Notes under the pieces: generated by a model
Database searches by the model: none
The model's input: the letters and a program-made list of their open reading frames with translations, nothing else
Told to the model about the DNA's origin: nothing
Part shown: piece after piece, positions 2,930 to 43,707 of the stretch
Position numbering within the stretch: the stretch's first letter is position 1
Layout: the number at the start of each line of letters is the position of its first letter
Assembly: GCA_019096065.1 (NCBI GenBank)
Contig: JAGUCH010000004.1
Span: forward strand, 4,526,001-4,590,000
Direction of reading: 5' to 3'
DNA length: 64,000 nucleotides
Origin: Paracyclopina nana
Lineage: Eukaryota; Arthropoda; Copepoda; Cyclopoida; Cyclopettidae
Position numbers and translations under genes: made by a program

Positions 2930-3329
2930 TCTACTGATAATTTGAGACAACTGTGTCAAGAGTTAGGGGTTTGAACCTTAAGTTTGTGTGACAAGGTTGG
3001 CAGGCTAGGGTTTATGAGAATAGGGTTTGTTAGACTTGAGCTTGTTAGAAAAGAGTTTGTCAGAAAAGGTTTGGGTACTTTTTAGGAGACTAGGCTTTAA
3101 GAGACTGTTGCTTTGGATACTAGTGTTTATGAGAGTTAAGCTACTGAGAATTGATTTGTGAGACTAGGGTTAATTTCACTAGGGTTTTTGAGCCTTTTTT
3201 ATGTGTGATTAGAGTTTGTGAAAGTAGGGATTGTTTGACTAGGTTAGTGAGAATATAGATGTGAGAATATAATTAGTGTGACCAAGATTTGTTAGTTGGG
3301 GATGGGGACTAAAGGGTTTTTCTAAGGGT
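2930..3329. repeat. Minisatellite of GAGACTAGGGTTTGT-like units, left of the retrotransposon
   Basis: Irregular iterations of GTGAGACTAGGGTTTGT-type units. The same repeat continues at 13749-13980 and 17829-17900, so the mobile elements sit inside one minisatellite. GGGGACTAAAGGGTTTTTCTA occurs on both sides of the BEL element. Confidence 0.7.
3325..3329. repeat. 5-bp target site duplication, left copy
   Basis: AGGGT directly before the 5' LTR and again at 13749-13753 directly after the 3' LTR. Confidence 0.9.
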
Positions 3330-3534
3330 TGTTTGCCTCCCGGCGAGGTTGTGTGTGGACTCACTTTTCGATCTGTCATTCGTTTGTTTATTTTAGTACT
3401 TTATCGGATTTTATGCATGGCGGTCGTCAAAATAAACGATCTGACCCAAAGATCCCTTTAGAGTGCTCTTTTATTCGTGCGACGTTTATTTTTATCAGTT
3501 CATCGAAGTCGAGATTACAGTGATCAGATTTACA
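3330..3534 (+). repeat. 5' LTR (205 bp)
   Basis: Begins TGTTTGCC and ends GATTTACA. It matches the 3' LTR base for base except that it lacks a 12-bp segment after position 3355 and has one extra A near 3505. An AATAAA at 3431-3436 may serve 3'-end formation in the other LTR copy. Confidence 0.95.
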
Positions 3535-3542
3535 TGGCGACC
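3535..3542 (+). promoter_or_regulatory. Primer binding site (tRNA-Arg type)
   Basis: TGGCGACC immediately after the LTR. The same octamer is the tRNA-Arg PBS of Drosophila 412/mdg1 elements, so a tRNA-Arg primer is likely. It does not match the 3' end of the tRNA-Arg(CCU) in this window. Confidence 0.75.
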
Positions 3543-3696
3543 AACGTTATCAGTTCCACACCGTGAGTGATCAGGAGTCAAGCTTATCGAGGAGCCGGCG
3601 GCCATCGGAGTCAGCTGTTGCTGACGAGCTGAAGGAGCTTGCGAACGGGGGGACAATATTGTCCCACGAAGCGCAAACGAGGGGACAGAGGAGCGA

Positions 3697-4622
3697 ATGT
3701 CCAAGGAGACCACCAAAAAGTACGGTCTCAGACACAACCCGATCAGAAATGTAAGGCTGACGTCGGGAGATTACGAACACGAAATAAAAGAAGCAAGAGC
3801 ACATCGACTCTGGCAGAACGAGCTAGCGACATCGAGAGCGCAAGGCAGAATGAGGTCAGCAAGCGAATAGCTGACTTCAAAGCCAGGATTTCGAGTGATC
3901 AGTCAGTCTGCATAGCGGGACACCCGGACATAGTGGAAAATGCAAGTACCAGTGTCCTGGACACGGCAACAAAGGAGCTAGATCTCAGATATAGTGACTC
4001 GACGATGCTTGGTGATGAGACAAACAGTGTGCACATGATGACAGCTGTAGATCCAGCACATGCAGGCATGGCTCCATGGAAGGAAGCCTGGGCTTCAGCA
4101 AAAGCGAGCCTCGAAAGTGACATTACGAGGCTTGAGGACAGTCTCAAAGCAGCGACAAAAACTGGAGCGGTCGAGTGCGTCCGCAACGGATTCAGCAACC
4201 TCATTGAAACCCTGAAAAGTGACGCAATTGTGCTAGACTCTCTAGTGACTCAAGGAGACAGAGAGGAATTCGGGGTAGAAATGAGAGCCATGAATCAAAA
4301 GCTTGTGGGGCTAGTGATGAAAGCCAGCGCAAAAGCCAGAAGCATCATGGTCCTAGGAGTCTCATCGGAGGCGGAGGCTTTAGTTGCCGCTGCCTCCAAC
4401 AAACCAGAAGAAAAAGTGCAGACACAACAGTCGACTCAGCCAGCTCAGCAAGAGAATGACACCGAGGAATCAGGAGTGGACCGAGCCATCGCGTTAAACG
4501 GTGAGTTTTTTTCGCTAGTTGCCCAATTAAAGAGTGCTGACAGGGAGCTTAGAAAGCTCAGAGCGGGGTCTATGGCAAGTCAACATGATGAAGACTGTCA
4601 ACAAGAGAAGAGTGGAGGTTAG
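3697..4622 (+). pseudogene. gag N-terminal region, frame-disrupted
   Basis: Coding sequence starts at ATG 3697 in the same frame as pol but meets a TAG at 3868-3870. From about 3850 the coding-like sequence continues one frame over, open to the TAG at 4620-4622, then returns to the pol frame in the overlap 4534-4622. The middle segment is rich in Ala, Glu and Lys and looks helical, like a Gag N-terminal coiled coil. BEL/Pao elements normally use one gag-pol frame, so two compensating indels in this copy are the simplest reading. Programmed frameshifting would be the alternative for the second shift. Confidence 0.7.
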
Positions 4623-7600
4623 TGAGCAACTTATGGCAATGCCAGATAGTGAAGACTTCCCCATCAACAGGCAGTGCATAGTGATAGGAAACAAGGAAGC
4701 TGAGAATATTGTGTCAACATTCCCCACCGGAACAAGAGGGCAAGTAGAGCCACCCCCGCCAACCATGGACGGGGGGACTCAAGAAAACAACTACGCTCCG
4801 AGGATGGAAGAAGACATGAAGATGCTGCAGCTTGGAGTCCCAGCAGTTCATCTGACAGAAGAAAAGTATAGGGAGAAACTGACCAAAGAGGAGGAATTTC
4901 TGGATCAGCACACAGTTATCGAGCAAGTCAGAAGAAGGAAGACTGCGGATGTGTGCTGGGCGGACATTATGCAAAGAAGAAACCTCCACAGATATTATGA
5001 TCCAAGTCTGCCGAAAGACACCAACTCGAGAGACGACGTGAAACCGATGTTCTTTGATGGGGCGAATACAGGAGCATACAGAGATTTCAAGGAATACGTG
5101 CACGCAGCCATCATCAAGAAAAAGAACATGAGTTGGTTTGAGAAGATTTCCAAGCTCAAATACCTGTGCACAGGAGGAGCTAAGTTTGCAGTTAGGCGGT
5201 GTACTTTGGACTTCGAAGGTTTGGTCAGCGCACTGGAAAATCTAGATGCGACATACCTTGGGCACCCAGGCAAAGCTGACGAAATGGTGCATGACTTGTC
5301 TGCGCAGCTCACGAAAATGATACCAATAAATATGAGAAATCTCCCGACATTGGAAACCACGCTAGCCTTAGTGGAAGAAATTATCGATTGCAATGGGCGA
5401 GGAGGAAGAGATGCCCTGGACGGCGAACAGTCAATACTGAGCAACATTCAGTTCGAAGTCAATGCCAGAAGGGACTACGAGAGGTTCAAGGAACAGAAAA
5501 TGCAATCACGCAACTCGCTGAGGTTGTTCATAACATGGGCCAGGACTCGAATCAGAGAGATTCAGAGAAGCAGAAAAGTCTGCACAGTGGTCGAAGATAT
5601 CAACAAGATGCATGACAGGAACTACCACAGAGGAGGAGGTCAGAACTACGGCCTCGTGCCACCCCCACAAGCGGCCGAGCCAAGCCAGCCAACCAGAGGC
5701 TACAGAGGCGGAGGCTACAGAGGCAGAGCAAGGAGGCCATTCTTTGGAGGAAGAAGGGAGCAATCTTACTATGTGTGGCAAGATGAGTACCCCACCAGAT
5801 ACGAAGATCCTTATGGTGATGAAGAAGTTTACTGGTGGGACCACAATCAGCCAAGTGCAACACCTGGAGAACCTCAGTGCCAAGGCTATGAGCAAGAAGT
5901 AGTGGCCCACTGCGACAACCAAGGCCGCGGTGGGTGGTATGACTTTGGATATCAAGACCAAGACGAAGAATGTGTCAACCTAGTCAGTGGAAAGACCATC
6001 TGCCTGTTGTGCAAAAAATCTGGACACAGATGCTGCGAGTGCCCAGAATGGAGTTTGTTCAAGCTTCAAGACATCATTAAGGTGATTGAGGATGCCAAGA
6101 TCTGCCCGAGATGTCTCCAAGGAAAGCACACGTTAGCTGACTGCAAGAGACAGTCGCATTGCGATGTCTGTGGATCAACAAGCCACCACACGAAAATCCA
6201 CAGATCGAAGCCCAAAGAAGAAGAATCCAAGAAGACCGGCAAAGAAGACATGAAGGAGCTTTTGGCATCAATGACGAAATTAATGACAAAGCTGTCTGAG
6301 ACAACACTTCTGAGTCAGGACCTTGGTTGTCCTGACAACGGAGATGGAAAGGAAGATGTGATCCTTTTGGCAGCAAATGCAACGAGATCCTGGCTCACGG
6401 TACCAGTAGAGATCTCAGTGGACGCAATGTTCGAAAAAACAGTCTCAACAAATGCACTGATTGACGCCGGATCGAGTGCAACACTGCTGAAGCCTTCGCT
6501 AGCAAAAAACCTCGGCTTTAAGGGTAAAAGAAAGCCTCTCACCGTAAAAGTGGTCGGAGACAAATCGATCACGCAACCATCCCAAGAGGGCGTCATCTAC
6601 ATCAGAGCCAAGAACGACAAGAACCAGGTGTATGAACTAAAGTTCAGCACGTTCGACTTACCAGTCTCCATTAAGCCGATCAACCCAAATGAGTTCAAAG
6701 CCAAGCACTCGGAACTGGAAAAGATTGACTTCCCAGTTCCAGAAGCAGGGGGGGTTGGCCTCCTGATTGGCTTCAACAACACGATCTTGATGAGTAGCGA
6801 ACAGGATGTGGTGGTCAAGAATGGACCACTAGCAAGAAAGACACCATTGGGATGGTCAATTTTGAACTACCCAGGATCGACAGGAGAAGAGAGTACTCTC
6901 CTCGTGGACGACTGGAAAACGTTCAACCAATCAGCAATGACCGAGTCAGAATTCAGATACATGCTTGACAGGCAGTACGGACTTGAGTCCATCGGCATCG
7001 ACAAAAAAGAGGAGCCAATCAAGAGACTGAATTTGGCAGAAGAGATGGCACTGATCAAGATGAAGTCATCGATGAGGCTGTTGCCCTCAGGTCATGTGGA
7101 GGTGGCCATCCCCTTTGTGAAAGACATCCCAGATCTACCGGACAATTTCACCCAGTGCGCAGCCATACAACGCAGCCTCGACAAGAAACATGCTGCAGAC
7201 CCAGGAGTCATGGCAGCGATCGGATCCACGTTTGAAGAATATCTTGCATTGGGCATTATCGAACCAGTGCCAAAGCATGAGCTGGGAAAAGGCTATTTTC
7301 TGCCAGTATTCTGCGTAGCAAGACACACGAGCGAAACCACCAAGTACAGGTTCGTGTACAACGCGAAGCAGAAGTTTGATGGCACCTCGATAAACGAGCA
7401 GATGTACACAGGACCCAATTACCTGGAGGACATATTTGACACGATGCTCAAGTTCAGAGTGGGAGACATTGCAGTTGTGGCCGACATAGAGAAAATGTAT
7501 CTCATGATAGCCTTGCCGGAAAAGGACAGAAAGTACGTGAGGATCATCATCAACGGCAAACAATACCAGTTCTGTAGGTGGCCTTTTGGCCTAAGAGCCG

Positions 7601-10371
7601 CACCATCAGTGGCAAATTTCGTGGTGAAGTCCCATATAAAGGCCAAAGGCTCCAAGCTCCTTCAGGACACTGTTAACATCTACATGGACGACGTGATCGT
7701 GGCCTTCAAGGCCAAGGACACTGCAAAGAAGGTCATCGAGGAACTTATACCACTAATGAGCGAAATTGGAATGGAGTTAAGAAAGTTTGTCTCAAATGAC
7801 AAGGAAGTTCTGGAAAAAGTTCCGGCAGAAAGAAGAGGAAAAGCGATGGTGGTTGAAGAAGAAATGGAGACACGAATTCACTCGACACTGGGACTTAAGT
7901 GGGACCCAGTCACTGATCAAATCGGGTACCAATTGTCAAAACACAACCAGGATGTAGTGACGAAGCGAATTATGGCAAGTCAAATACCATCAGTCTTTGA
8001 CCCATTGGGGGCGCTGGCTCCATGCCTACTGAAAGCAAGGAAAGCGCTGCAGCTCGCACATAAGGCTGACAAAGAGAAAAAAATCTCGTGGGATGAAGAT
8101 TTGTCGAAGGTCGATAGCAAGGATGCCAAAGAAGCAGTCAAGTTGTGGAAACAGTGGCAAAAGGAGTTCAACCAGATGACGAGTGTGAGCTATCCCAGGA
8201 AAGTAGCAGCAGAGATCAACGAGGATACAATCCTACACATGTGTAGTGACGGATCTGATCTAGCCTTCGCAACAGTCGCTTACATTAGTCAAAGAGGAAG
8301 CCAGCCACAACCAAGGTGGCTGACCACAAAAGCGAGGATCCAAGGCGTTCGACAGAGATCGATTCCGGAAGTGGAGTTGGCAGGCACGTTGCTGAGTGCC
8401 AGACTGTCCAACAGACTCATCAGACTCTTTGGCATCAAACGAGAAAACGTCTGGTACTGGGTAGACAACAAACCCGTCATTTACTGGATAAGAAAGCCAG
8501 GAGTAGAAAGATGTGTCTTTGTACGCAACAGAGTCATTGAGATTGCGGACACGACCTTGATGGAACACTGGAATCATATAGCTACAGCTGAGAACTCAGC
8601 CGACCTTCCAACGAGAGGCTGCACTGGAGACCAGCTGAAGGATCACAAGAATTACTGGGAGGGACCAGAATTCTTCAAAGAAGCGCAAGACCAATGGAAG
8701 CTCACGGACATAAAAGTCCTAGAAGAAGAACTGCTAGGGTCAGGTGAGATCACACTGCTTGGCGAGGACCTTGGTTGTCCCCGCAAAATAGCGGTGAATC
8801 AGTTGGCCATGATCCAACCTCATGAAGTTGTTGAAGGCGGCATGAATGCTGTCCAGGGGAGCCATGTAGTGTTCCAACAAATGAAGAAAATTATGAGCCT
8901 CCGGATGGCAAGCAGGTGGTCAACAATGATTAGAGCCATGGCAAGGATTGTCGCGAAGAGCAGAAAATTGGAAGTGGAATTTGTGATTCCGGAGGAGATT
9001 CTGTCAGAAGTTGTGAGAAGAGTGCTAATATACGCACAGTGGCTCAAGTGGGAGAAAGAAATCCTACACTTCGAAAAAACAGGAAAATGGAAGATGACAT
9101 TGCAAGACAAGCACACGCTGATGATGGACAGTGATGGCCTGCTGAGGATTTGCACGAGATTGTACAAGCAGGACTTGGCAGGATCAAGAATCAATCCAGT
9201 ACTGATGGCAGACACCTGGCCATTCACACTATATGTGTGGAGTGTGCATCTGCTGGAAAATCACATAAGGTATGACAATCTTTGGCACAGAGTGTCGAAG
9301 GAGATTGCAGGTCCTGGAGTGAAGAAGGCAGCATACAAGGTGTCAAGGGAGTGCAGCAGGTGTGCAAGGAATCATGCGAAAATGCCGAAGCAGTTGATGG
9401 GCGGAATCTCGAAAGTAGATCTGACCAACCTGAGACCATGCGCGAAAATAGCGCTGGATTATACGGGTGCACAGTGGGTCAAGTTCAGACGAAAAAGAAT
9501 CCCAGTGTACGTGCTAGTGGCTGTGTGCCTGAGCACAAAGGTGGTAACCTTGGAAATCACGATGGGCATGAATACAGAGGACCTAATTTTAGCATTGACG
9601 AGGATTGCGGCAAGAAGAGGTCCAATTGAGGAGGCATTCTCAGACAATGGAGGCAGCTTCAAAATGGCAAAGAGGTTGCTCGAAAAAGAAGTCAAGCCAC
9701 AAGACTTGAAGCACGAAGTGGAGCAGATTGACTGGGAAAAGCTCCAGATGCAAACAGCAAAATATGTGCGAAAGTGGACTCTGTCGCCCCCAAGAGACCA
9801 CGAAGCAAATGGACAAATTGAGTCGTTTGTAAAATTGGCAAAGAATGCAATTCAAGATAATGTGGACAGAGGTGAAGTGGACCTCGAAGTGTACAGAACC
9901 TGGGTCGCGCAAGCAGAGAATGTCGTTAACTCAAGACCGATAGCCGTGATCAAACAAGACAATGACGAAAAGCTGGTTTTAACACCCAACCACCTTTTAG
10001 TTGGGAGGTTGGGTGACGCGGGAATTTTCTCCCAAGATCATGAACTTGGATTTAGTGTACACGAATTGGCCGAAAGAATGGCCAAATTCGAGAAGAGCTG
10101 GTGTGATTACTTTTTACAGAGCATGCACGATAGGTGCAAATTCAAGACAAAGTACAACGCAAAGATTAAAGAGGGCGATTTGGTTGTGGTGGCTGAAGAA
10201 AACCTCAACGTCAAAAGACATCAGTGGAAACTAGCAAAGGTGCTAAAAGTGCAAAGAAGTGCTGATGGATTGGTGAGACGAGTAATTGTGCAACAGAAGA
10301 AGAGTGTGTTCGAGCGAGGAATCAGAGACGTGATTCCAGTAGCGGAATTTCCGCACATTGATTTAGCCTAA
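4534..10371 (+). CDS. pol: BEL/Pao Gag-Pol polyprotein (Gag C-terminus, PR, RT, RNase H, IN)
   Basis: 1945 codons, uninterrupted. In order: a DUF1759-like Gag domain (about residues 160-330); a Gly/Arg/Tyr-rich linker; three zinc knuckles (about 485-555: CLLCKKSGHRCCEC, CPRCLQGKHTLADC, CDVCGSTSHH); an aspartic protease with DAGSSATLL at D644; reverse transcriptase with YMDD at 1050-1053; and RNase H with acidic positions in CSDGSD, EVELAG and WVDNKP. The integrase has an HHCC zinc region (CSRCARNH) and catalytic D1642, D1704 and E1763 (PPRDHEANGQIESF). All key residues are present, so Pol may be functional although gag upstream is shifted. The first codons overlap the gag frame and are probably not a true start. 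Confidence 0.93.
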   Translation: MLTGSLESSERGLWQVNMMKTVNKRRVEVSEQLMAMPDSEDFPINRQCIVIGNKEAENIVSTFPTGTRGQVEPPPPTMDGGTQENNYAPRMEEDMKMLQLGVPAVHLTEEKYREKLTKEEEFLDQHTVIEQVRRRKTADVCWADIMQRRNLHRYYDPSLPKDTNSRDDVKPMFFDGANTGAYRDFKEYVHAAIIKKKNMSWFEKISKLKYLCTGGAKFAVRRCTLDFEGLVSALENLDATYLGHPGKADEMVHDLSAQLTKMIPINMRNLPTLETTLALVEEIIDCNGRGGRDALDGEQSILSNIQFEVNARRDYERFKEQKMQSRNSLRLFITWARTRIREIQRSRKVCTVVEDINKMHDRNYHRGGGQNYGLVPPPQAAEPSQPTRGYRGGGYRGRARRPFFGGRREQSYYVWQDEYPTRYEDPYGDEEVYWWDHNQPSATPGEPQCQGYEQEVVAHCDNQGRGGWYDFGYQDQDEECVNLVSGKTICLLCKKSGHRCCECPEWSLFKLQDIIKVIEDAKICPRCLQGKHTLADCKRQSHCDVCGSTSHHTKIHRSKPKEEESKKTGKEDMKELLASMTKLMTKLSETTLLSQDLGCPDNGDGKEDVILLAANATRSWLTVPVEISVDAMFEKTVSTNALIDAGSSATLLKPSLAKNLGFKGKRKPLTVKVVGDKSITQPSQEGVIYIRAKNDKNQVYELKFSTFDLPVSIKPINPNEFKAKHSELEKIDFPVPEAGGVGLLIGFNNTILMSSEQDVVVKNGPLARKTPLGWSILNYPGSTGEESTLLVDDWKTFNQSAMTESEFRYMLDRQYGLESIGIDKKEEPIKRLNLAEEMALIKMKSSMRLLPSGHVEVAIPFVKDIPDLPDNFTQCAAIQRSLDKKHAADPGVMAAIGSTFEEYLALGIIEPVPKHELGKGYFLPVFCVARHTSETTKYRFVYNAKQKFDGTSINEQMYTGPNYLEDIFDTMLKFRVGDIAVVADIEKMYLMIALPEKDRKYVRIIINGKQYQFCRWPFGLRAAPSVANFVVKSHIKAKGSKLLQDTVNIYMDDVIVAFKAKDTAKKVIEELIPLMSEIGMELRKFVSNDKEVLEKVPAERRGKAMVVEEEMETRIHSTLGLKWDPVTDQIGYQLSKHNQDVVTKRIMASQIPSVFDPLGALAPCLLKARKALQLAHKADKEKKISWDEDLSKVDSKDAKEAVKLWKQWQKEFNQMTSVSYPRKVAAEINEDTILHMCSDGSDLAFATVAYISQRGSQPQPRWLTTKARIQGVRQRSIPEVELAGTLLSARLSNRLIRLFGIKRENVWYWVDNKPVIYWIRKPGVERCVFVRNRVIEIADTTLMEHWNHIATAENSADLPTRGCTGDQLKDHKNYWEGPEFFKEAQDQWKLTDIKVLEEELLGSGEITLLGEDLGCPRKIAVNQLAMIQPHEVVEGGMNAVQGSHVVFQQMKKIMSLRMASRWSTMIRAMARIVAKSRKLEVEFVIPEEILSEVVRRVLIYAQWLKWEKEILHFEKTGKWKMTLQDKHTLMMDSDGLLRICTRLYKQDLAGSRINPVLMADTWPFTLYVWSVHLLENHIRYDNLWHRVSKEIAGPGVKKAAYKVSRECSRCARNHAKMPKQLMGGISKVDLTNLRPCAKIALDYTGAQWVKFRRKRIPVYVLVAVCLSTKVVTLEITMGMNTEDLILALTRIAARRGPIEEAFSDNGGSFKMAKRLLEKEVKPQDLKHEVEQIDWEKLQMQTAKYVRKWTLSPPRDHEANGQIESFVKLAKNAIQDNVDRGEVDLEVYRTWVAQAENVVNSRPIAVIKQDNDEKLVLTPNHLLVGRLGDAGIFSQDHELGFSVHELAERMAKFEKSWCDYFLQSMHDRCKFKTKYNAKIKEGDLVVVAEENLNVKRHQWKLAKVLKVQRSADGLVRRVIVQQKKSVFERGIRDVIPVAEFPHIDLA
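5906..5934. other. Hairpin H1, loop AACCAAG
   Basis: An 11-position stem 5906-5916 / 5924-5934 with one mismatch (A-C) and one T-G, closing loop AACCAAG. Lies inside gag coding sequence. The loop is the complement of the CTTGGTT loop of H2, H4, H5, H6 and H7. Confidence 0.7.
6314..6336. other. Hairpin H2, loop CTTGGTT
   Basis: A perfect 8-bp stem GTCAGGAC/GTCCTGAC around loop CTTGGTT, between the zinc knuckles and the protease. Confidence 0.85.
8302..8322. other. Hairpin H3, loop AACCAAG
   Basis: A perfect 7-bp stem CAGCCAC/GTGGCTG around AACCAAG, in the RNase H region. Confidence 0.8.
8762..8784. other. Hairpin H4, loop CTTGGTT
   Basis: Stem GCGAGGAC/GTCCCCGC (4 bp, one A-C mismatch, 3 bp) around CTTGGTT, between RNase H and integrase. 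Confidence 0.75.
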
Positions 10372-10488
10372 AAAAAAAAAAAAAAAAGTGATAGCACAAC
10401 TCGTCGACACCAAGAAAAAGACTTTACACCACAAAGAAGAAAGTGAAACAGAAAAAGACTGAAAAACATCTGGTAGCGCTGTCATAAC
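10372..10488 (+). other. pol-ORF3 junction with A17 tract
   Basis: The pol stop TAA runs directly into a homopolymeric A tract (10370-10387 including the stop). About 100 bp of A-rich sequence follows before ORF3. The phrase TCTGGTAGCGCTG occurs twice around the first ORF3 ATG (about 10469 and 10496). Confidence 0.85.
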
Positions 10489-13400
10489 ATGAAGTGTCTG
10501 GTAGCGCTGACCATCAGTGAAGCTGAGCGGCGGCTCAGCAAGAACCGCGCCAATAATAATAAAAGTGCGCCGAATTTTCTCGTCAAAACACAACAGTGCA
10601 AAAAAGTGAAGATGGCGGACAAGAAAAGATCCGGCAGCAGTGGCAAAGATGACGAAAGGAAGAAGAGGAGAGTCTCCACGAACCCTGGTTGTTCGAGGGG
10701 CTCTTCAGAGGACTTGAGGATCACCATAGCAAATACCGGAGAGGAACCCAGCGAGACGAAGCCGAAACATGGAATGGCCGCTTTTACGTCGGAGCGGCAA
10801 ATTGATCACGCGGCGGAAATCATGCGAGCTACGGGATTTCGACGGCTTCATTGGTATACCAACAACGACGTCAGCAGAAGAGACGCCTTTTTTGAGGTCT
10901 TTAAGGACCCGGAAATTCTGCTCATCGGCGACCAGTACAACTGGGGCGAGAAGTTGCCAGACGATTCGAGGCCGGCCGAGAGAAGGAGGAAAATGCGACG
11001 CATGGACGAGTGGAGAGCTTATAGAGCGCTTATCTGTCGCTCCAGAGGTATGTCGCTCATGGAAACGTACATGTTCTCTTACGGCAATCAGTTCGTGGAC
11101 ATCATGCGGATGTACAAGGAGCAGCCCGACCCAGAGCTGGAGGAGCTGCCCGACAAGGCGACGATGACCAGGTGTTGGATGGCGGCGAGAGCTCTCGGCC
11201 AGTACATCAAAGACTCGATGTCGGATCCAGCATGGGAAAAAGGAGTCCTCCAGGCAATGGAGGCTGGAATGGGCATGCACGTTGTACCGAAAATGTACAA
11301 GTTGTACAAGGAGGGCGATGTGGCGGACGTCATCATGATCGACCAAATGAGAACGAGTCTGTCAATTGACGAAATGGAGCAACTCTCCGTCTTCAAAAAG
11401 CTGCCAATAGTCACAAGAGAACACAACGACCAATTTGTGAAGGCCTTGAAGGACACGCTGGAAGCGATCAATGCACCGGCGCTGGAAGTTCGAATGAAAG
11501 TTGTCCATCATAAGCGATGTCAAACCGAGGCCGACCCTGAAATGAGCGGGATTGCACCCCATCAAGGCCAGGACCTTGGTTGTCCTGGCCCCAGTGGAGT
11601 TCAACCCGGAATGGACAGAAATAGACGAGTTGTCCTGGAAGATGTCGATGTGGACATGGAGGCAGCCCCAACGAAGGCGGAGCTAATCTCAGTTGCTTGT
11701 CAAGCAGCAGAGGTGGCAGAGCTCATCACAATTGCTTGTCAGACAGAAGAAAGGACGGAGGCCGCGCCCAGACCAACGACATCCACGCCAGTGGTCATCC
11801 CGGCTGGAATGGAAGATGAAATCATGGCTGACTTTCGAGGCTCCCAGCTGAAGGACGTCTCCAAGCTGAGTACATCAGTCACGCCCATGGATGAGGACGA
11901 GAAATATCTGCGCAAGTATACGAAGACTTATGAATGCCCGGAGCTGGAGGCCGGCAAAGTTTATGATATGACGAGTGAGCAAGAGCGGAAGTGTCATCAC
12001 TTGGGTTGTGCCATCCGGAGGGAGTTTGACCTGGTGGAAACCACGGACAAGTCCATGACGGTGGCCTTGGTTGTCACCGTCAAAGAGGCTCGTCGATTGG
12101 CATCCATGGCAAAAGGCACACCATATGACTTGGAATCACCTAAGATTCGATCAGTGTATATTTATGGTCTAACTAAAAAAGACAATATGTACTCTTCTAA
12201 TAGTTTTCCAGAGATAGAGCATGCCCTGGAGCTGGAAGAATTTTTCGAGTGCATTGAGAAGGCAAGAATGATGACGGTCGACTGTGAAGGCTTCCATCAA
12301 TCGCACAAGGTTGCGTACGCCAAGAAGTTTCCCCCCACAGTAGACGAGTTCAACAACATGACGTCGTATGTGCACATGGGAGCCCCAAATGGCATCGCAT
12401 TTGGCACGCGAGTGGGCTTCGTGGGTCCAACTTTTGTCGGCCGAAAGCTGCCTCAGCGCATTGTCGACCTGCTTGAGTCCAGAAGCGTGTTCAAGCTGGG
12501 CTTTGGAGTGGATGGAGACTTGAAGAGATTTCAGCTGATGGGAATCAACGTTCGATCTTGGGTCGATGTCGGTCACATCATCAAGCTGTTGAGGCCGTCC
12601 GCCAACGTTGGCAAAGAGGAGATGCTCAGGTTACTCGGGGTTCAACACTCAGTGCGCTTCCCAAAATGGGCGGGCGAAAACCCATATGGCGGATTCGTGG
12701 ATGAATACTCTGACTCAACAATCTACTACGATAGAATTGATCAGTTTGCCCCGATGGCGGGAGTGTTCAAAGCTGCCTGCCGCATCGCTGAGTGCGAGGG
12801 GCTGCAAGATGGCGACAACTTGTACCCGTACGTGTTGGCATTGCTTGCCCTCTACGAAAATGTGCCCCTGAAGTTTGGCACACAGCCTCGCGTGGAGTTT
12901 CGAGGCCTGTTGGACGAGCCCGAAGTGCCCCTAGACGTGCTGAGAGTCGAATCGAGACTGTTCAACTCGCGGGAGCATGTGATGAAGAAGTTTAGGAGTC
13001 TGGAGCTCCTTTGGCCGATCTCGAGAAGTTTTTTTCCTCACTTGTCCAATTCGGCAGTTCAGTCCTTGGAAAGCGACCTTGAAGCGTCCTTGGTTGACCT
13101 TCATAGGGCCGCTGTCATGGATGGGGCTGTTGGACGAGTGACTACGACGGCCAAGAAGAACCGCAAGATCGTCAAGTACCCTCACGCGTGCCTCATTTGT
13201 GGCGAGTTTGAGCACGACGCCTTCGACTGCTTGGAGCTACCTACGTGCACGCTCCCATACTGTGGCCGGGATGGCCACGCGTCAAAAGTGTGCCCACAAG
13301 TGTTAGAGAGGTGCATGAGCTGTGGGGGGCGCGGCCACAATGCTGGCCACCACCAGGACCATGATCTGGTCCAGCTCTTCGCGGGCGAGCGCGTCGCCCC

Positions 13401-13500
13401 ATTCGTGCATGTGATGGCTGTCCGGCAGATGGACAGGAATGGCAAAATTCTGGTGATTCAACGATATGGCGCGATCAAGCCTCTGAGAAGGTTCGAGTAG
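10489..13500 (+). CDS. Retrotransposon ORF3: DEDDy 3'-5' exonuclease with zinc knuckles
   Basis: 1003 codons between integrase and 3' LTR, the slot where env sits in some retroelements. No signal peptide or membrane segment is evident, so it is not an envelope. The N-terminal 60 residues are basic; ATG 10612 (GAAGATGG) has better start context than 10489. A helical, charged region follows. A 3'-5' exonuclease domain spans about 580-780: motif I D598-x-E600 (TVDCEGF), motif II with D675/D677 (GFGVDGDLKRF), motif III Y747-x3-D751 (YDRID), the DEDDy pattern of the RNase D/WRN/EXD2 group. The C-terminus (about 900-960) has a CCHC knuckle (CLICGEFEHDAFDC) and two more Cys/His clusters. The assignment rests on motif order; its role in the element is unknown. 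Confidence 0.85.
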   Translation: MKCLVALTISEAERRLSKNRANNNKSAPNFLVKTQQCKKVKMADKKRSGSSGKDDERKKRRVSTNPGCSRGSSEDLRITIANTGEEPSETKPKHGMAAFTSERQIDHAAEIMRATGFRRLHWYTNNDVSRRDAFFEVFKDPEILLIGDQYNWGEKLPDDSRPAERRRKMRRMDEWRAYRALICRSRGMSLMETYMFSYGNQFVDIMRMYKEQPDPELEELPDKATMTRCWMAARALGQYIKDSMSDPAWEKGVLQAMEAGMGMHVVPKMYKLYKEGDVADVIMIDQMRTSLSIDEMEQLSVFKKLPIVTREHNDQFVKALKDTLEAINAPALEVRMKVVHHKRCQTEADPEMSGIAPHQGQDLGCPGPSGVQPGMDRNRRVVLEDVDVDMEAAPTKAELISVACQAAEVAELITIACQTEERTEAAPRPTTSTPVVIPAGMEDEIMADFRGSQLKDVSKLSTSVTPMDEDEKYLRKYTKTYECPELEAGKVYDMTSEQERKCHHLGCAIRREFDLVETTDKSMTVALVVTVKEARRLASMAKGTPYDLESPKIRSVYIYGLTKKDNMYSSNSFPEIEHALELEEFFECIEKARMMTVDCEGFHQSHKVAYAKKFPPTVDEFNNMTSYVHMGAPNGIAFGTRVGFVGPTFVGRKLPQRIVDLLESRSVFKLGFGVDGDLKRFQLMGINVRSWVDVGHIIKLLRPSANVGKEEMLRLLGVQHSVRFPKWAGENPYGGFVDEYSDSTIYYDRIDQFAPMAGVFKAACRIAECEGLQDGDNLYPYVLALLALYENVPLKFGTQPRVEFRGLLDEPEVPLDVLRVESRLFNSREHVMKKFRSLELLWPISRSFFPHLSNSAVQSLESDLEASLVDLHRAAVMDGAVGRVTTTAKKNRKIVKYPHACLICGEFEHDAFDCLELPTCTLPYCGRDGHASKVCPQVLERCMSCGGRGHNAGHHQDHDLVQLFAGERVAPFVHVMAVRQMDRNGKILVIQRYGAIKPLRRFE
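11566..11590. other. Hairpin H5, loop CTTGGTT
   Basis: A perfect 9-bp stem GGCCAGGAC/GTCCTGGCC around CTTGGTT, inside ORF3. Confidence 0.9.
12057..12081. other. Hairpin H6, loop CTTGGTT
   Basis: A 9-bp stem GACGGTGGC/GTCACCGTC (one G-T wobble) around CTTGGTT, in ORF3. The loop is read in a different codon frame from H2, H4 and H5. Confidence 0.85.
13081..13102. other. Hairpin H7, loop CTTGGTT
   Basis: Stem GAAG-c-GTC/GAC-CTTC (7 bp with one bulged C) around CTTGGTT, in ORF3. Confidence 0.7.
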
Positions 13501-13521: not shown

Positions 13522-13532
13522 CCAGAGGGGAC
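13522..13532 (+). promoter_or_regulatory. Polypurine tract
   Basis: CAGAGGGGAC immediately before the 3' LTR; a short purine run in the place expected for plus-strand priming. Confidence 0.65.
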
Positions 13533-13748
13533 TGTTTGCCTCCCGGCGAGGTTGTGTGATTCTATCTGGCTGGACTCACTTTTCGATCTGTCATTCGTTT
13601 GTTTATTTTAGTACTTTATCGGATTTTATGCATGGCGGTCGTCAAAATAAACGATCTGACCCAAAGATCCCTTTAGAGTGCTCTTTTATTCGTGCGACGT
13701 TTATTTTTATCAGTTCATCGAGTCGAGATTACAGTGATCAGATTTACA
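13533..13748 (+). repeat. 3' LTR (216 bp)
   Basis: TGTTTGCC...GATTTACA. It contains the 12-bp segment ATTCTATCTGGC absent from the 5' LTR and is otherwise identical apart from 1 bp. It is followed by the right copy of the AGGGT duplication. Confidence 0.95.
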
Positions 13749-13980
13749 AGGGTTATCAGACGAGGGTTTGACAGACAAATGGTTTGTCAGGGTTTGTAAA
13801 AGATGAATTTGTGAGCCTTTGATTTTTGTGACTAGGGTTTGTGAGACTAGGGCTTGTGAGAGTAGAGATTGTGAGAATAAAGTTGGTTTGGCTAAGGGTT
13901 GTTGGTTGGGGACTAAAGGGTTTTTCTACGGGTTTGTCAGGCAAGGGTTTGTCAGATAAATTGTTAATCAGGGTTTTGGA
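13749..13980. repeat. Minisatellite between the two mobile elements
   Basis: Continuation of the TGAGACTAGGGTTTGT-type minisatellite seen left of the BEL element. Confidence 0.7.
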
Positions 13981-14006: not shown

Positions 14007-17000
14007 GTGAAATGTCCAGATAAAAAAAGTCCGGTTGCAAAAAGTCGAGATACTCAAAGTCCGCTCAAACCTCGCTATGCTACAGCAAAAGAGGAATCTC
14101 TTGAGGATGATGACATCGATGTGGAGCTAAAAGACAACATCACTGATGCCGATCATGTCAACTTTATGGCCTGCTTTCCTTTAGAGCAATATGATCGCCT
14201 CTGCCCTTGGATTGAAGGTTGCACCAGTTTCATGATGGAAAAGATGATTGTTGGTCGCCATTTTTTGTCAGGTGAGCCCATTGATGACAATATTGTTTGC
14301 CCCTTAGCTGCTTGCGCCACTGCTTGGCCCAAAGCTGCTCAGCCTGGAGATGAGCTCCTTCATGGACTCTCAATTGAAAGCTTCGACTTCACCCATCCTA
14401 AATTTGTTGCGGAGCAAGAGTCCCTTGCTCTGGAAGGACCGTTTGACCTTCGATTTATGGATGGACTGCGCAATGTTGTCTCTTTTGATGCTGACCATGA
14501 ATGGTCTACTGTTCTTCCAATGCTGGAGAACGATGAGTTCTTTGTCCAAATTCAACAAAGACGCGTCATGGCAATTGCCACCATTCCATGGACTGTTGGA
14601 GCCTATTCCAGGATGGGATTTACGAAGACAAGCCCTCCAAGTGAAGCCTTCACTACATTGGGAGTACTCGCTCCCAATGGCATCGCTCTATTTATAGTTG
14701 TTAACTATGGGGGGTTATCGCAGCCGATCAAGGGTAGGCAAGTACCTGATGAAATCAGGCTACGCGCATGTGTCCAGCTCCACGAAAAAAGTCAAAAATT
14801 CTACCAAGATATTCCTCTAAATTGTCACATATTATGATGTCCCATAATATATGGCCGCATGAATAATTATAAAGTAACATTCTGTGCTACATCAGGCTGC
14901 ATGGGCCCACACATAATGTCCCATAGCATTCTGTCCCATAGCATTTTGTCTCATAGCATAATGTCCCATAACAAATTGTCACAAAGCAAATTGTCGCATA
15001 GCATATTGTCACATAGGCATTTGTCCCATAGCATATTGGCTCATAGCAAATTGTCACATAGGCATTTGTCTCATAGCATATTGTCTCATAGCATATTGTC
15101 CCATAGCATAATGTCCCATTGCATAATGTCTCATAGCATAATGTCTCATAGCATAATGTCACATAGCACAATGTCTCATACCGTATTGTCACGTAGCAAA
15201 TTGTCACATAGTATTTTGGCTCATAGCATAATGTCTCATAGCATATTGGCACATAGGCAATTGTCTCATAGCAAATTGTCTCATAGCATATTGTCACATA
15301 GCACAATGTCACATAGCATATTGGCTCATAGCAATTTGTCTCATAGCAAATTGTCTCATAGCAAATTGTCTCAGAAGATAGAAAGCTATGTGACATTATG
15401 CTATGAGACAATATGCATCTTAGCATGTTTAGTTAAATTGGCTTTTTTCTAATTTGCTATGTGACAATATGCTATGAGACATTATGCTATGAGCCAAAAT
15501 GCTATGTGACAATTTGCTATGTGCCAATATGCTATGAGACATTATGCTATGTGACAATTTGCTATGTGCTAATATGCTATGAGACATTATGCTATGTGAC
15601 AATTGCCTATGAGACAATTTGCCATGAGACAATTTGCTATGAGACAATTTGCTATGAGACAATTTGCTTTGAGACAATTTGCTATGAGACAATTTGCTAT
15701 GGGACTATATCCTATGAGACAATTTGCTATGAGACAATTTGCTATGAGTCAATTTTCTATGAGCTATTTTGCTATGATACATTATGTTATGTGACAATTT
15801 ACTATGAGACATTGTGCTAGGAGATAATTTGTTATGAGACAATTTGCTATGAGACAATTTGCTATGAGACAATTTGCTATGAGCCAATATGCTATGGGAC
15901 TATATCCTATGAGACAATATGCTATGAGACAATCTGCTATGTACCCTGGTTTGAGAAAATCTGCTATGTGCCAACTTGCTATGAGCCAATATGCTATGGG
16001 ACATTATGGTATGTGATAATATACTATGAGACAAGGTCCTTTTTTCAAATCAGTAAATATAATATAACCTTGTAGCCTTAATGGCTATGGAACATTTTGC
16101 TAAGTTCCAAGAATATAAAACAATTAATTTGCAATTTTTTGTAAAGCTGGACACATGCACGTAGCCTGAAATCATCTCTCTGCTTGTTGATGGGAAGATT
16201 CGTAAAGGACAATTTAACGTCCATGATGACAAGTCTTGCTTAGCAGCAATCGGGATTGAGGTCCAGGGTGAGGTTGACATGACCAACCTCACGAAGTTTG
16301 CTTTTCCCCCTGATGCTGCAAATCCTGCACTGACAGTGCACAAAGGATTGACGTTTGCTGCTCAACAATTGAACCTGCCATCCCATTTGGAGATTAATCA
16401 TCCCAACCCTCGTGATAAAGGCTTGGATGCTGAAAAGAAGGCCAAAGATGTCGTTGTTTATGAGGGCGACACCGTCAAGAACAACTGGGCTTTGGCTAAT
16501 TGTTCAAGAAGCTTCAAGGATTGGGAAGATGGCCTTGTCTTCTATGCTTTCTATCGGCTGGCTGTGCCAATGATACTGGTGCAGCGAATGGCTTGCACCA
16601 TTTTGGGTTTTCTGCATGCTGAGCCTGAGGCTAACTCCTCCAGGATGGTACATTACCTCTTGTCCTTGTCTTATGGCAAGCCAGCCTTTAACTATTCGTC
16701 TAGCAAGAGATCCTTGCATGTTTGGGCTTTTGGGCGAGGCTGGTTCATGGGCAATCCCAATGCTCGTCCTAGACCAGGATTTCTCCACATGCAAGAAGAC
16801 AATCCTGTCCTTCGGTCTGCCAAAGAAGTCTGCCTCGCTATGAAGGAACTTGTCCTTGCTCCAGATCCTGGAGCCACTTTGCCTGTTCTCAGGGCTGATC
16901 TCAAGTCATATTTGAAGGGTAAATCTTACCATGAGATCAAAATCAAGGATGTCTTGGACAGAGCTTTCTATCCTGGACAAAGCTTTCCTCATCGTTGCAA

Positions 17001-17566
17001 GCATTGTGGTTCGACTGCCCACGTTGATAGGGAGCAAAACATCATTGCCAATCTGGATGATGCTCGCCTGAAGATCGAAGATGACCTTCCTTGTTGCTCT
17101 ATTGCCAAAAGATGCATCTACCCTCGTTGTTGCAGCACTGACCATGTCCTGGAAGTCTGCCCCAAAATGGGTGAGCGTTGTTCTGAGTGCAATGGTCTTG
17201 GACACTCAGCCTTTGATCATATGTCAGTTTCGTTTGTCACTTTGAAAATGACTATGCCTTGCTCACCCCCTTCAATGTTAATTCTGTTGGATACATCCGT
17301 GATCTCCAATGATCTTATGTCACTGGTGCCTTTTATCAGTTTCAACTCTCCATCACAGTTGGCAACACGGAGCAAGCTACACTTGCTTGCGTCCCAACTC
17401 GCTTTAATGCTCCCTTGAATTGATGATGATGCTACCGATCCCCTTGAAGATCTAGACTTCATCCTAGATGAAGTCTGGGCGGAGAATGTCGATGCTGTTG
17501 CATTTGAATCTGCGCGCCGAGTCTCCGCTGAGTACATTTTCAGTACTACTAAGAATTAGGATCATT
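14007..17566 (+). pseudogene. Decayed homologue of the BEL ORF3 exonuclease/zinc-knuckle protein
   Basis: Two long segments, 14007-14755 and about 16170-17240, belong to one coding region split by the foldback element 14756-16168. The matches to BEL ORF3 run in the same order: EEFF..I-like sequence before motif I; APNGIA shared exactly; a motif II-like segment (FNVHDD then GIEVQGEVD); and a C-terminal Cys/His cluster with VCP..ERC..C.G.GH spacing shared. Motif I has lost D-x-E (ATI in its place) and the motif III Tyr is not evident, so catalysis is unlikely. After about 17225 the coding-like sequence changes frame and meets stops (around 17310 and 17416). An AATAAA lies at 17583. The apparent start lies in the TIR repeats and may be too early. 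Confidence 0.75.
14756..16168. mobile_element. 1.4-kb foldback element of 15-bp repeats, nested in the exonuclease gene
   Basis: Terminal inverted repeat CAGGCTACGCGCATGTGTCC with one mismatch at the other end, flanked by AAAT (14752-14755 and 16169-16172). The inside is an array of 15-bp units of the type CATAGCATAATGTCT. The array runs forward from about 14905 to 15380, then flips to the complement (GCTATGAGACAATTT) until about 16035, giving a hairpin with arms near 500-600 bp. Translations of the array are artefacts. Removing the 1413 bp plus one AAAT (1417 bp) brings the two host coding segments into the same frame, confirming the boundaries. Confidence 0.85.
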
Positions 17567-21347: not shown

Positions 21348-24231
21348 ATGGAGCGAGGTAGAGGCCGTGGATTCCGCGGCGGCCAAGGAAGAGGTCGAGG
21401 AGGCTACGAAAATGCTGGAGGTCGTGGACCAGGCAGAGATGCTGCGAGCATGGCGGATTTGGCCAAAGCTGCTCAACAAATGAGCCTTGGCGATGGCCCC
21501 AGCCGAGGTGGAGCGCGTGGAAGGGCCAGAGGAGCACGTGGAAGAGCCCAAGAATCTGGAAGTAGATATGACTGCGTTCCAACTCGACCAGCCAATTTGG
21601 GAAGCAAGATGGGAACTGCTGGCCAGCAAATTCAGCTGGTCACCAATTATTTAGGTTTTAAGAAGAAACCTGCCAACAATCTCTTCAAGTACCGAGTTGA
21701 CTTCTTGCAAGACGTTCAGGAAGAGTTGGCCACTTTTGCCAAGAAGAAAATTTTTGCCCGCCTGACATCCGTTTTGCCTCCCTATTTGTTTGATGGCACG
21801 ATCGCCTACTTCCCTGCCAAGCTCCAGACCTTGGAATTCACTTCTGGACTCGAAATTCAGCCTGGTGTTGAAAAGCCTGTTCGAGTTGTCCTTAAAATGG
21901 TGGGAGAAGTGGTCAGCACGGACAACGATTACGTTCACGTAATTATACCAAAGGATTTAATGAAGCTTTGATTTTTTATAGCTTTTTGTTCCAGTTCTAC
22001 AATTTGATAAAGCAACGAGCCATTGAGAAACTTGGACTCAAGTTCATGAAAGGGGATTTCTTCGACCCGGAGGCCCAAATCCAAAAGCCAGAGTGGCAAG
22101 TCACGATTTGGCCAGGATATCGCACCACCATCCGCCAACATGAGCATGAGCTGCTGCTTGGATTTGAAGTTGTTCACAAGCTCCTTCGAACGGACTCTGC
22201 ATTTGGAACCATCCAGCAGATAGCCTATCGATACGGGGCGGGCGAAGAAGCAATTAGAGCCATCAAAAGGGCTTTGATTGGCTCCGTGGTCATCAGCGCC
22301 TACAACAATAAAACTTACAGGATTGATGACGTTGACTTCACAAGCAATCCCATGTGTAGGTTTTTGGGCCCTTTAACAAAATACCCAAAATTGCTTTTTC
22401 TGCTCTGAAAGCTAGATTTTCGCAACTGCTTTCAAAAGAATAGTCTATAAAAGCATTCTTGGCGTCTTGCAATAGTAGTTTTTTTTTTTAATCTTGATTT
22501 TGGTGCAATTTCAGCCACTTTTCAACTCAAGGATGGCTCCACGACAACTTTCAAGGACTACTTCGAAAAGAGGTACGGGTTGCAGGTTAAAGACCTGAAG
22601 CAGCCTTTACTTATCAGCATGCCTAAAGACAAAGATCGTCGACGAGGGGAAGCAACTGCCGTAAAGATCATTCCAGAGTTCACTCAAATGACTGGTTTGA
22701 CAGATGAGCAAAGGGCCAACTACAAAATGACTCAAGTAAGCATGGAATCATTTTAATGCGCTCGATTTGTGTCTAATTTCTGCTCTAGGCTTTGTCCGAG
22801 TGGACCAGAATGGTTCCAAGCAAAAGGATTGAGGCGTTGCAGAAGTTTGGGAAGCGAATGACAACCGTTCCAGCTGTCAAAGCTGAGTGGGAAAAGTGGG
22901 GTATGGAGCTTGACCCCGCACCTAAGCAGCTGAAAGGAAGGCTGTTGGACCCTGAAGTTATCTACATGAGGAAAGAATTCCGATACAAATCGCAGAATGC
23001 TGATTGGGCCAATGGTAAGAATCATGGCATCTGCATTTTGTCACTTTTAAAACGCATATTTTCTGTTGTAGGATTGAAGGATGGCATGATGGAACAAAAA
23101 CTCATCAGTAAAGTTGCTATTGTGGTTGCTCGCAACATCAAAGAGCAAGGAATAAAGTTTTGGGAAGCCTGCACAGGCATTGCCAGGACGATGAATATCA
23201 CGCTGTCGAGTTCGCCCCTCTGGGTTGAAGTTCCCGATGCTCGAGCTACTTCCTATGTTAGTGCGATCACTAATCAGGTCTATCCCAAGAGGCCTGATAT
23301 TACTGTGGTCATGGTGCCAAAAGTGGACGAGGAGTTGTATGCCACGTTGAAGAAGCTCATGTGCATCAAATGCCCGATGATTTCTCAAGTCCTCACTGCT
23401 CAGAAAGTAATGAGCAAGCCTGACAAGTACAAGTCCTTTGCCACTAAGGTTCTTGTCCAAATGGCTGTCAAGCTAGGTGCGAAGCCGTGGGCGCTGAAAA
23501 TACCTCCGAAGAATGTCATGGTGGTTGGATTTGACACCTACCACAAAAAGGAAGGGGATCAAAGGGGCATGTCGTATGGTGCACTCACAGCCTCACTGGA
23601 TCCACTCTTCGGTCGCTACTATTCGCAGTCACTGGCCCACGCTGCGGGAGAAGAGGTTTCCCACAACATTTCCACAATGTTTGCATCTGCTTTGAGGGCC
23701 TACCACAATGCAAATGGTGCTTACCCGGGTAAGGTCTTCTTCTATCGCGATGGGGTAGGAGAGGGAATGCTTCTCGAGGTCAAAGAGACGGAAATCAAGG
23801 CTATCAAAACGGTGTTGGAAACCACTGGAGCTGACATCAAGTTGACCTTCATCGTCGTGAGCAAGAGAATCAACACGAGATTTTTCGCTCCTGCTGGCCC
23901 AAATGTGCAAAATCCGATGAGTGGCACGATTGTTGATGATGTTGCTACCTTGCCCGAACGGTACGATTTCTTCCTCATCAGTCAAAGCGTGAACCAGGGG
24001 ACTGTGAATCCCACAAGTTACAACGTCATTCTGGACGAGTCCGGATGGAAGCCAGACAATATCCAGGCTCTCACGTACAAGCTGACTCACTTGTACTTTA
24101 ACTGGGCCGGAACCGTGAGGGTCCCCGCGCCTTGCTTGTACGCCCATAAGTTGGCTGATCTTATGGGCTCTAAGCTCAAGGAAGACGTCCATCAAGAGCT
24201 TACCAATCAAAATGTCTTGTACTACTTATAA
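21348..24231 (+). CDS. piwi: PIWI-clade Argonaute
   Basis: Five exons: 21348-21938, 21995-22355, 22515-22735, 22789-23014, 23072-24231; introns are 53-159 bp, GT-AG, phases consistent; 852 aa, a normal Piwi size. The N-terminus is rich in RG/GRG dipeptides, the usual arginine-methylation platform for Tudor proteins. The PAZ region lies in exons 2-3. The PIWI domain contains GFDTYH (first Asp), YRDGVGEG (second Asp) and PCLYAHKLA (His), so the DDH slicer triad is present; the glutamate-finger region precedes YRDG. It would load piRNAs and silence transposons in the germ line. The repeat-rich block to its left is an obvious class of target, but no piRNA cluster can be shown from sequence alone. 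Confidence 0.95.
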
Positions 24232-42393: not shown

Positions 42394-43707
42394 TCAAAGG
42401 GAGGGCGAGGTCTCCTCTTGCACAGCAGCCTCTGCGTATCGTTTTTCTAGCAATGTCTTGGCAAAGTCGTACAGCTCTAGGTCTAAATGGTTGATCTCTT
42501 TGATCCTATCTAAGACGTTCGGATCTAAGTCTCCCTCAAAATTCTTGGACACAGTATCATTGTTCTGAGTGAAGGGATTCTTGAAGTGGAGATCGAAGGT
42601 GTGTTGAAACAGGATTTGACTGTCGTGCTGTTTTTCTGTCAGCCCAAAAAAGGCCATTTTCTCAAGATTTGTCTTGGCACTGTTGAGCATAATTATGTCT
42701 CTAGCCTTTGCACTCATCCTCGAGGTGTCGTAGCAATTGACCAGCTTCAAATCTGCCAACATACGAGTTTGGCGGTTGGCTGCCAAATTGTAAGGACAAC
42801 TCATAAACTCTTCAAGTTCTACGCCTGACCAATCCTCCTCGAGGAGATCGTTGTAGCACTTGGGCAATTCATCTTTTGTGGCAGGAATTCCATTGCATTT
42901 GTGCAAGGAGCCTTTCCACGTGGCTCCCCTTTGCACGTGCTTGAACTCAGAGAGGTATCGTTGAATTGGCTCACGCAGGAAAGTGATGTAGAAATAGCGA
43001 CGGCTCGCCTCTCCCTCCACCCTAGTCAAGTAGTCGTCGACACATTCAGTCAATTCTGTCCAATCGGGATGGAGGCCGCATTTCCATCCCGTGCTGTACC
43101 TGGAGAAAAGCCACACAGAAGACTTGCCATTCGGCCTGAAGCAGTCACATTTGAGCTTCCTTTTGGGACGTTCTTCTTGCGGCTCGTCAAAATGAAAGCT
43201 GTCATAGTCGTACACATCTCGCTTTGGCTTTTTCTTGCGGTGGACTTTCGACCTTCTTTTGCACAAACACGGTGATTCCAGATCAATGTCTTGTACTAGG
43301 TGCTTGCCAAACGTGGATCCACCTGTTTTCTGAATGTGCAGGAAAACCATCACGTCACTGCCATTGATGTTGAACTCAAAGTTGTCACGTTGAATGGTGT
43401 CATAGTTGACAAAGTTAATATCGATTTGCAGAGGAGCTGGCGGAGGAGCCAAATTGAACATGGGCTTACGAGCGAAGCAATAGAACTCGGGGCAGTTGTA
43501 GATGACACCGATGCCCATGAGAATGATGATGCCGATGAGGCAGAGCATCAAGCATCTGTAACGGCGCATACTTGCTAAACTGCTCCCACTGCCCCGTCGC
43601 AGCAAAGGTTTGTGTAAATGGCGGTTTTGAAGTCTCAGACTTCGAACGGAATCCTCATGGCCGGAGGAAGAGGGTAAAAGGGGCTCGCGGTCGAGACTTC
43701 TATCCAT
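42394..43707 (-). CDS. HS6ST: Heparan-sulfate 6-O-sulfotransferase
   Basis: Single exon, 437 aa, start at ATG 43707. Type II membrane topology: short basic cytosolic tail, hydrophobic segment at about 49-71, then a luminal domain. The PAPS 5'-phosphosulfate loop is HIQKTGGSTFGKHLV (about 123-137), and LREPIQRYLSEFKHVQRG fits the 3'-phosphate binding region. Golgi enzyme adding sulfate to glucosamine O6 of heparan sulfate. It ends 85 bp from the end of convergent FICD. Upstream, the FAM32A stop codon is only 7 nt before this start, so no separate promoter can fit between them. Confidence 0.95.
   Translation of the reverse strand: MDRSLDREPLLPSSSGHEDSVRSLRLQNRHLHKPLLRRGSGSSLASMRRYRCLMLCLIGIIILMGIGVIYNCPEFYCFARKPMFNLAPPPAPLQIDINFVNYDTIQRDNFEFNINGSDVMVFLHIQKTGGSTFGKHLVQDIDLESPCLCKRRSKVHRKKKPKRDVYDYDSFHFDEPQEERPKRKLKCDCFRPNGKSSVWLFSRYSTGWKCGLHPDWTELTECVDDYLTRVEGEASRRYFYITFLREPIQRYLSEFKHVQRGATWKGSLHKCNGIPATKDELPKCYNDLLEEDWSGVELEEFMSCPYNLAANRQTRMLADLKLVNCYDTSRMSAKARDIIMLNSAKTNLEKMAFFGLTEKQHDSQILFQHTFDLHFKNPFTQNNDTVSKNFEGDLDPNVLDRIKEINHLDLELYDFAKTLLEKRYAEAAVQEETSPSL

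Follow-up and report, generated by a model that had tools for sequence, protein, structure and literature searches.

The window analysed here, a stretch of 64,000 nucleotides from the copepod Paracyclopina nana (contig JAGUCH010000004.1, positions 4,526,001 to 4,590,000), contains a long terminal repeat (LTR) retrotransposon with three open reading frames (ORFs), the last of which, ORF3, is the subject of this analysis. ORF3 occupies positions 10489–13500 of the plus strand and is open for 1003 codons from an ATG, exactly as first described, comprising a helical N-terminal region, a predicted DEDDy exonuclease domain and zinc knuckles. The element itself is a young BEL/Pao retrotransposon, as the original prediction had held. 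Its two LTRs show no substitutions and are distinguished by two indels, of 12 nt and 1 nt, the 5 bp target-site duplication AGGGT borders it at both ends (3325–3329 and 13749–13753), and its pol carries BEL/Pao domains. The 5' LTR (3330–3534, plus strand, 205 nt) lacks 12 nt found in the 3' LTR (13533–13748, plus strand, 216 nt); the gap lies at 3355–3356 of the window opposite 13559–13570, and the 12 nt are kept in the 3' LTRs of two 99% relatives, L002 and L003.

ORF2 (4534–10371, plus strand, 1945 residues) was assigned as a BEL/Pao pol, containing protease, reverse transcriptase, Peptidase_A17, a weakly matched integrase and DUF5641, because of its Pfam matches to Peptidase_A17 (9e-27, 94.4 bits, cut-off 22.3), DUF5641 (4e-13, 50 bits, cut-off 23.1) and RVT_1 (6e-11 at 965–1083, 43 bits, cut-off 29.6). 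The integrase core follows RVT_1 at 1649–1712 with an E value of 0.004 and 17.9 bits, under the cut-off of 32.6. ORF1 (3639–4622, plus strand, 327 residues from a TTG) gave no match in Pfam. It overlaps the start of ORF2 in a different frame, which could reflect an extra product or a frameshift. Judged from the sequence, a putative primer-binding site starting with TGG is located immediately 3' of the 5' LTR (3535–3548, plus strand) and a purine-rich stretch directly 5' of the 3' LTR (13524–13531, plus strand) is a putative polypurine tract. One transfer RNA (tRNA) gene is present within the window.

The conservation of ORF3 was examined using an alignment of 28 long ORF3s from the same 92-Mb genome, which are 27 to 99% identical to the window ORF3 and not independent, L001–L003 being 99% alike and L027 and L032 a near-identical pair. 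The exonuclease domain, defined as the region matching solved exonucleases, spans approximately residues 542–794 (12112–12870, plus strand). Within it motif I, D598-x-E600 (12280–12288), the motif II aspartate D677 (12517–12519) and motif III, Y747-x3-D751 with the pattern YDRxD (12727–12741), all on the plus strand, are invariant in all 28 sequences. The DEDDy residues originally proposed were therefore conserved with the exception of D675, offered as an alternative to D677. D675 varies among the 28 long ORF3s, and from this alignment D677 is the predicted catalytic aspartate of motif II. The exonuclease motifs are followed, as had been noted, by three zinc knuckles (13189–13353, plus strand), two of the CCHC and one of the CCHH type. 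Their twelve Cys and His residues (C901/C904/H909/C914, C920/C925/H930/C935 and C942/C945/H950/H955) are invariant in 28/28 sequences, and the Pfam knuckle models match them weakly. In total 65 of the 1003 positions of ORF3 are invariant, the other 938 varying or being gapped somewhere among the 28 rows. The 20 more distant rows are 34–52% identical to the window ORF3 over the exonuclease part and 18–39% over the N-terminal part. Three further invariant cysteines (residues 483, 502 and 507; 11935–12009) are located 5' of the exonuclease domain and possibly form another metal site.

Profile searches of the ORF3 family gave matches to the exonuclease family PF01612 for 19 of the 28 long ORF3s at E ≤ 1, with a best value of 1.9e-5; at stricter limits, 22 of 36 members matched at E ≤ 0.1 and 13 of 27 at E ≤ 0.01. 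Matches to HEPN_Swt1 (4/36 members, best 0.08) and JmjN (4/28, best 0.14) fell far under the cut-offs. A single-sequence fold of the window ORF3 had a predicted local distance difference test (pLDDT) score of 31.6 and was set aside as uninformative. The fold model built from the family alignment contained a confident domain, and its top Foldseek matches were the EXD2 and WRN exonucleases, in agreement with the RNase H-like exonuclease fold that the original prediction implied. The WRN rows were better than the EXD2 rows, with TM-scores of 0.58–0.64 and a deviation of about 5 Å, and Nibbler, EXD1 and Egalitarian were also among the structural matches. Identity was at most 19% among the 50 Foldseek matches listed, and the rows mostly spanned model residues 443–733, with next to nothing on the N-terminal region. 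The ORF3 domain is thus predicted from this model to take an RNase H-like fold resembling EXD2, WRN and RNase D exonucleases. With EXD2, the WRN exonuclease, RNase D and NrnC (DnaQ-like DEDDy enzymes of PF01612) it shares the signature motifs D-x-E, D and Y-x3-D as well as this predicted fold. Unlike them, it is embedded in an element protein of 1000 residues with its own N-terminal region and knuckles. EXD1, Egalitarian and Nibbler are host proteins of RNA pathways, whereas ORF3 of the window branch is an element gene that keeps the five catalytic residues.

A search of the genome for relatives of the window ORF3 gave 39 places, corresponding to 38 distinct loci once L015, which makes up the second half of L009, is counted with it. 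Using the window pol as query, a BEL pol was found upstream and in the same orientation at 32 of these 38 loci, the upstream sequence of the remaining six (L010 and L016–L020) being too short to judge. A 3' LTR directly follows ORF3 in the ten loci examined (L001–L010), and ten different sequences lie 3' of these LTRs, hence they are separate insertions. When distances were compared over 25 of the 28 loci (L003, L016 and L020 lacking an integrase piece of sufficient length), those of the integrase correlated with those of the exonuclease at r = 0.97, and 0 of 2000 permutations gave an equally high value; for the 243 pairs differing by more than 30% the correlation was 0.85. Mean identity over the 25 loci was 0.53 for the integrase and 0.50 for the exonuclease. 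The ratio of nonsynonymous to synonymous change (dN/dS) over residues 100–1000 of ORF3 was 0.06 for L001 against L002 and against L003, the only two unsaturated pairs; in the other 15 pairs synonymous change was near or past saturation, and a whole-gene ratio was not computable in 9. Since ORF3 is present in dozens of elements and tracks the divergence of the integrase, it is an old, regular and vertically inherited part of its BEL/Pao lineage and not a one-off passenger, the outcome on which the original prediction had been made to depend. Searching with the window-branch member most distant from the rest recovered the same branch again and added two new places, C6:3460841 and C3:2855885.

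The way in which ORF3 is expressed was considered by scoring its frame relative to the pol stop codon in 26 copies with both ends seen, including L006, in which the stop used falls inside a decayed pol. The two were in frame in 7 copies and out of frame in 19, and ORF3 overlaps pol in seven copies. Read-through of the pol stop codon, suggested by the window copy in which both share one frame, is therefore no general rule. Because the frame relative to pol varies, ORF3 probably has a translation start of its own, used on a message that is spliced or re-initiated. A ATCTAGTC stretch recurs just 5' of the ORF3 start in 5 of the 8 copies compared (L004, L005, L008, L012 and L014) and is a candidate splice acceptor. 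Between pol and ORF3, the window copy (10369–10400), L004, L005, L007 and L008 have a run of roughly 14–21 A residues that coincides with the pol stop or lies a short distance 3' of it.

Outside the element, approximately 0.3 kb 3' of it and on the same strand, lies the broken ORF3 of another BEL family, with motif I absent (14007–17418, plus strand, in two parts at 14007–14837 and 16279–17418). The parts are split by an insertion of about 1.4 kb that includes a 15-nt minisatellite (about 14852–16005) and a short repeat with many copies elsewhere in the genome. Smith-Waterman alignment with the window ORF3 gave scores of 69 for the first part (shuffle maximum 54) and 111 for the knuckles (shuffles 61), the neighbour's knuckles matched the window ORF3 in tblastn at 1e-6, and the exonuclease profile of the window branch matched the neighbour at 1.8e-5, beyond 3000 shuffles. 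Alignment of window ORF3 residues 691–900 with the second part gave a score of 43, below that of shuffles (56). Judged by eye, the neighbour may have kept the motif II Asp, and the motif III Asp reads Arg. Its pieces are 85–91% identical to an intact frame of 1102 residues at C2:5507036-5509100, downstream of a Peptidase_A17 match.

The distribution of both branches was measured around 150 Peptidase_A17 matches, those scored of 243 candidates. An ORF3-family match lay on the same strand and no more than 8 kb downstream at 87 of the 150 (median 4.4 kb), with none on the opposite strand and two upstream; 85 of the 87 belonged to the neighbour's branch and 2 to that of the window. The sample under-represents the window branch because the window element, at 94 bits, scores below all 150. 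The 63 matches without an ORF3 match may lack the gene or carry one that is too diverged. The places compared comprised 101 second-branch places, kept from searches of 101 and 106 rows, plus the 39 places of the window-branch search; second pieces of one frame, matches to a short repeat at residues 247–276, window-branch knuckle matches and the window itself were dropped from the second-branch set. Thirteen of the 101 had no Peptidase_A17 match among those scored. Four elements picked from this branch (L040–L043), with frames of 1102–1335 residues and each downstream of a Peptidase_A17 match, all lacked D-x-E, as did the neighbour. Motif I was replaced by A-x-I in the neighbour and L040, A-x-N in L041, H-x-Y in L042 and H-x-A in L043. 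The window-branch profile matched L040, L041 and L043 beyond every shuffle (E values of 6e-5, 9e-4 and 4e-5); L042 was marginal (0.11, best shuffle 0.3) and had been recruited via a match to the neighbour at 3.5e-11. Over 169 codons the neighbour and L040 differ by 63 synonymous and 15 nonsynonymous changes, giving a dN of 0.055 and a dS of 1.13. As dN is far under dS, the loss of motif I sits in a constrained gene and is not only found in a relic.

DEDDy ORF3s have been described in the LTR elements Juno and Vesta and in the Athena/Terminon Penelope-like elements of bdelloid rotifers (Rodriguez, Kenefick and Arkhipova 2017; PMC5408684), and are also covered in PMC6431247 and PMC5718144. According to PMC5408684, the ORF3 of Juno and Vesta resembles that of the window in following pol as the third ORF of an LTR element, in carrying a DEDDy domain and in having no envelope features. 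The domain is given there as RNase D-like, its invariant residues being described as intact with DEED in place of DEDD, and a Cys-His-Cys motif is noted in Vesta2 and Vesta5, where the window ORF3 has three zinc knuckles. Juno and Vesta are called retrovirus-like clades in that paper, which nowhere uses the words BEL or Pao, whereas the window element is BEL/Pao. The same text describes two or more gains of the rotifer domain, in more recent branches, and its probable exchange between elements. The window lineage differs in that ORF3 spans divergent BEL/Pao elements, tracks the integrase and is accompanied by a related branch in which motif I is missing. A nuclease after the integrase had been considered unusual and not a standard BEL/Pao feature. 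The first point is narrowed by the rotifer elements, which are of other clades. On the second, no DEDDy or other 3'-5' exonuclease ORF in BEL/Pao was found reported in the open-licence PMC literature, in searches not all of which named BEL/Pao; within this genome, though, the ORF3 superfamily is common in BEL/Pao elements, mostly as the branch without motif I. As far as was searched, the novelty thus lies in the BEL/Pao setting, the depth of vertical inheritance and the motif-less sister branch, the DEDDy ORF3 as a kind being already known.

With modest confidence, these results are interpreted as a BEL/Pao lineage whose regular third gene is a DEDDy-type 3'-5' exonuclease with three zinc knuckles, acting on the nucleic acid of the element itself. 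The computed basis comprises the predicted fold, the conserved catalytic residues, the location of ORF3 after the integrase and before the 3' LTR, the purifying selection on it, its co-divergence with the integrase and the related branch lacking motif I in other BEL elements. DEDDy enzymes remove nucleotides from 3' ends via two metal ions, zinc knuckles bind single-stranded nucleic acid, and the reverse transcriptases of LTR elements are not known to have a proofreading nuclease. ORF3 would be made as a separate protein, its knuckles and exonuclease fold would hold RNA or single-stranded complementary DNA (cDNA) inside the particle of the element, and the catalytic branch would there trim 3' ends, whether of element RNA, primer tRNA or unfinished cDNA. 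Given that motif I is missing from the sister branch, both branches likely have binding in common, and trimming would be a job kept in the catalytic branch of the window.

Several observations weigh against this interpretation. The profile match obtained for the family does not extend to the window protein, which on its own gave no exonuclease match in Pfam and nothing in protein-database searches, so that its assignment rests on its family. Sequence matches of ORF3 to solved structures were weak (E 0.025–0.05), and for the EXD2 rows the TM-score relative to the target was no higher than about 0.5, with a root-mean-square deviation of 17–21 Å over the whole alignment. The missing D-x-E of the second branch indicates that ORF3 can evidently serve BEL elements without motif I. 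Exonuclease activity and role are inferred, and what ORF3 would act on, when and where, is speculative. An alignment search with the window ORF3, which found nothing among 7997 candidates scored, was uninformative, and scans of IMG/VR with ORF3 and with a reverse transcriptase piece confirmed no relatives. A bolder extension, which we regard as tentative and on balance doubtful, is that an exonuclease-fold third gene was ancestral to a large BEL/Pao radiation, was kept like the integrase, and split into a catalytic form and a constrained pseudo-exonuclease that binds RNA, the catalytic form performing an essential 3'-end processing step in BEL replication. We know of no such step in other LTR elements.

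Alternatively, the fold might mainly bind, localise or package RNA, with the catalytic residues kept for structure. Egalitarian is a protein in which an exonuclease fold likewise serves RNA binding and localisation, and its presence with EXD1 among the structural matches, the zinc knuckles, and the open frames of 1102–1335 residues in the sampled elements without D-x-E are all consistent with such an adaptor. EXD1 and Maelstrom are said in PMC5408684 to use the fold in this way. A pure binder would, however, be expected to lose some catalytic residues, as the sister branch did, whereas all five positions are invariant in 28/28 window-branch sequences, in an alignment where 938 of the 1003 positions show variation or gaps, and we consider the adaptor unlikely. 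Less probable again is a counter-defence, in which ORF3 would degrade or trim host small RNAs or their precursors, of the PIWI-interacting (piRNA) or small interfering (siRNA) RNA pathway, and so shield the element. Nibbler and EXD1 work in this pathway, the host encodes a Piwi-domain protein (PF02171), and it is common for accessory genes of mobile elements to be directed against host defence. The Nibbler and EXD1 matches are nevertheless no better than those to DNA- and oligonucleotide-directed enzymes, such that the fold singles out no small-RNA role, and the nearness of a Piwi gene to this single copy does not count as evidence for a link. The pol-like divergence and strong purifying selection of ORF3 are also unlike fast arms-race evolution, and this slow divergence is why counter-defence is not favoured.

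A third gene after the integrase is usually read as an envelope, and ORF3 occupies the env position of retroviruses and some LTR elements, so it could aid cell exit or entry despite an enzymatic origin. Tas, Cer7 and roo are BEL/Pao elements whose ORF3, located between integrase and 3' LTR, is env-like; unlike theirs, the window ORF3 has a predicted nuclease fold and no conserved transmembrane segment. In the 28 rows no conserved transmembrane or signal segment was seen by hydropathy alone, the top 19-residue value per protein being 0.87–1.82 at differing positions and exceeding the customary 1.6 in four rows (L001–L003 and L016). The knuckles and nuclease fold instead point to nucleic acid, and an envelope role appears very improbable. 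For the rotifer ORF3s it is formally possible according to PMC5408684, which nevertheless argues against it from the absence of coiled-coil or transmembrane parts. The related gene 0.3 kb downstream could also suggest that ORF3 was recently captured from a neighbouring exonuclease-like host gene as a one-off passenger. This is refuted by the distribution of the family over dozens of elements, by the co-divergence with the integrase, and by the neighbour being an ORF3 branch of another BEL family without motif I; an old capture, before the two branches split, may have occurred. An exonuclease gene inherited with the integrase through a divergent BEL/Pao lineage constitutes a stable alternative to an envelope, and the related versions without motif I in the same genome make the role of nuclease-fold accessory genes in retroelements directly testable. 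Since the window sequence alone gives no family match, other BEL/Pao ORF3s annotated as 'env' may hide nucleases.

Elsewhere in the window, an Argonaute/PIWI-type gene is located about 8 kb downstream of the element (21348–24231), with a Piwi domain match of 2.6e-85 in 22792–24228. A small minus-strand ORF (34125–34613) contains two CCHC-like knuckles weakly similar to knuckles of ORF2 (E 0.054). Other host genes encode a Grainyhead-type CP2 factor and a Fic protein, which together with the Piwi and sulfotransferase genes suggest an animal host. Those at 48781–51618, 42394–43707 and 53429–54217 (COG1-like, sulfotransferase, proteasome alpha) form long uninterrupted frames, hence the host genome looks intron-poor in this region.

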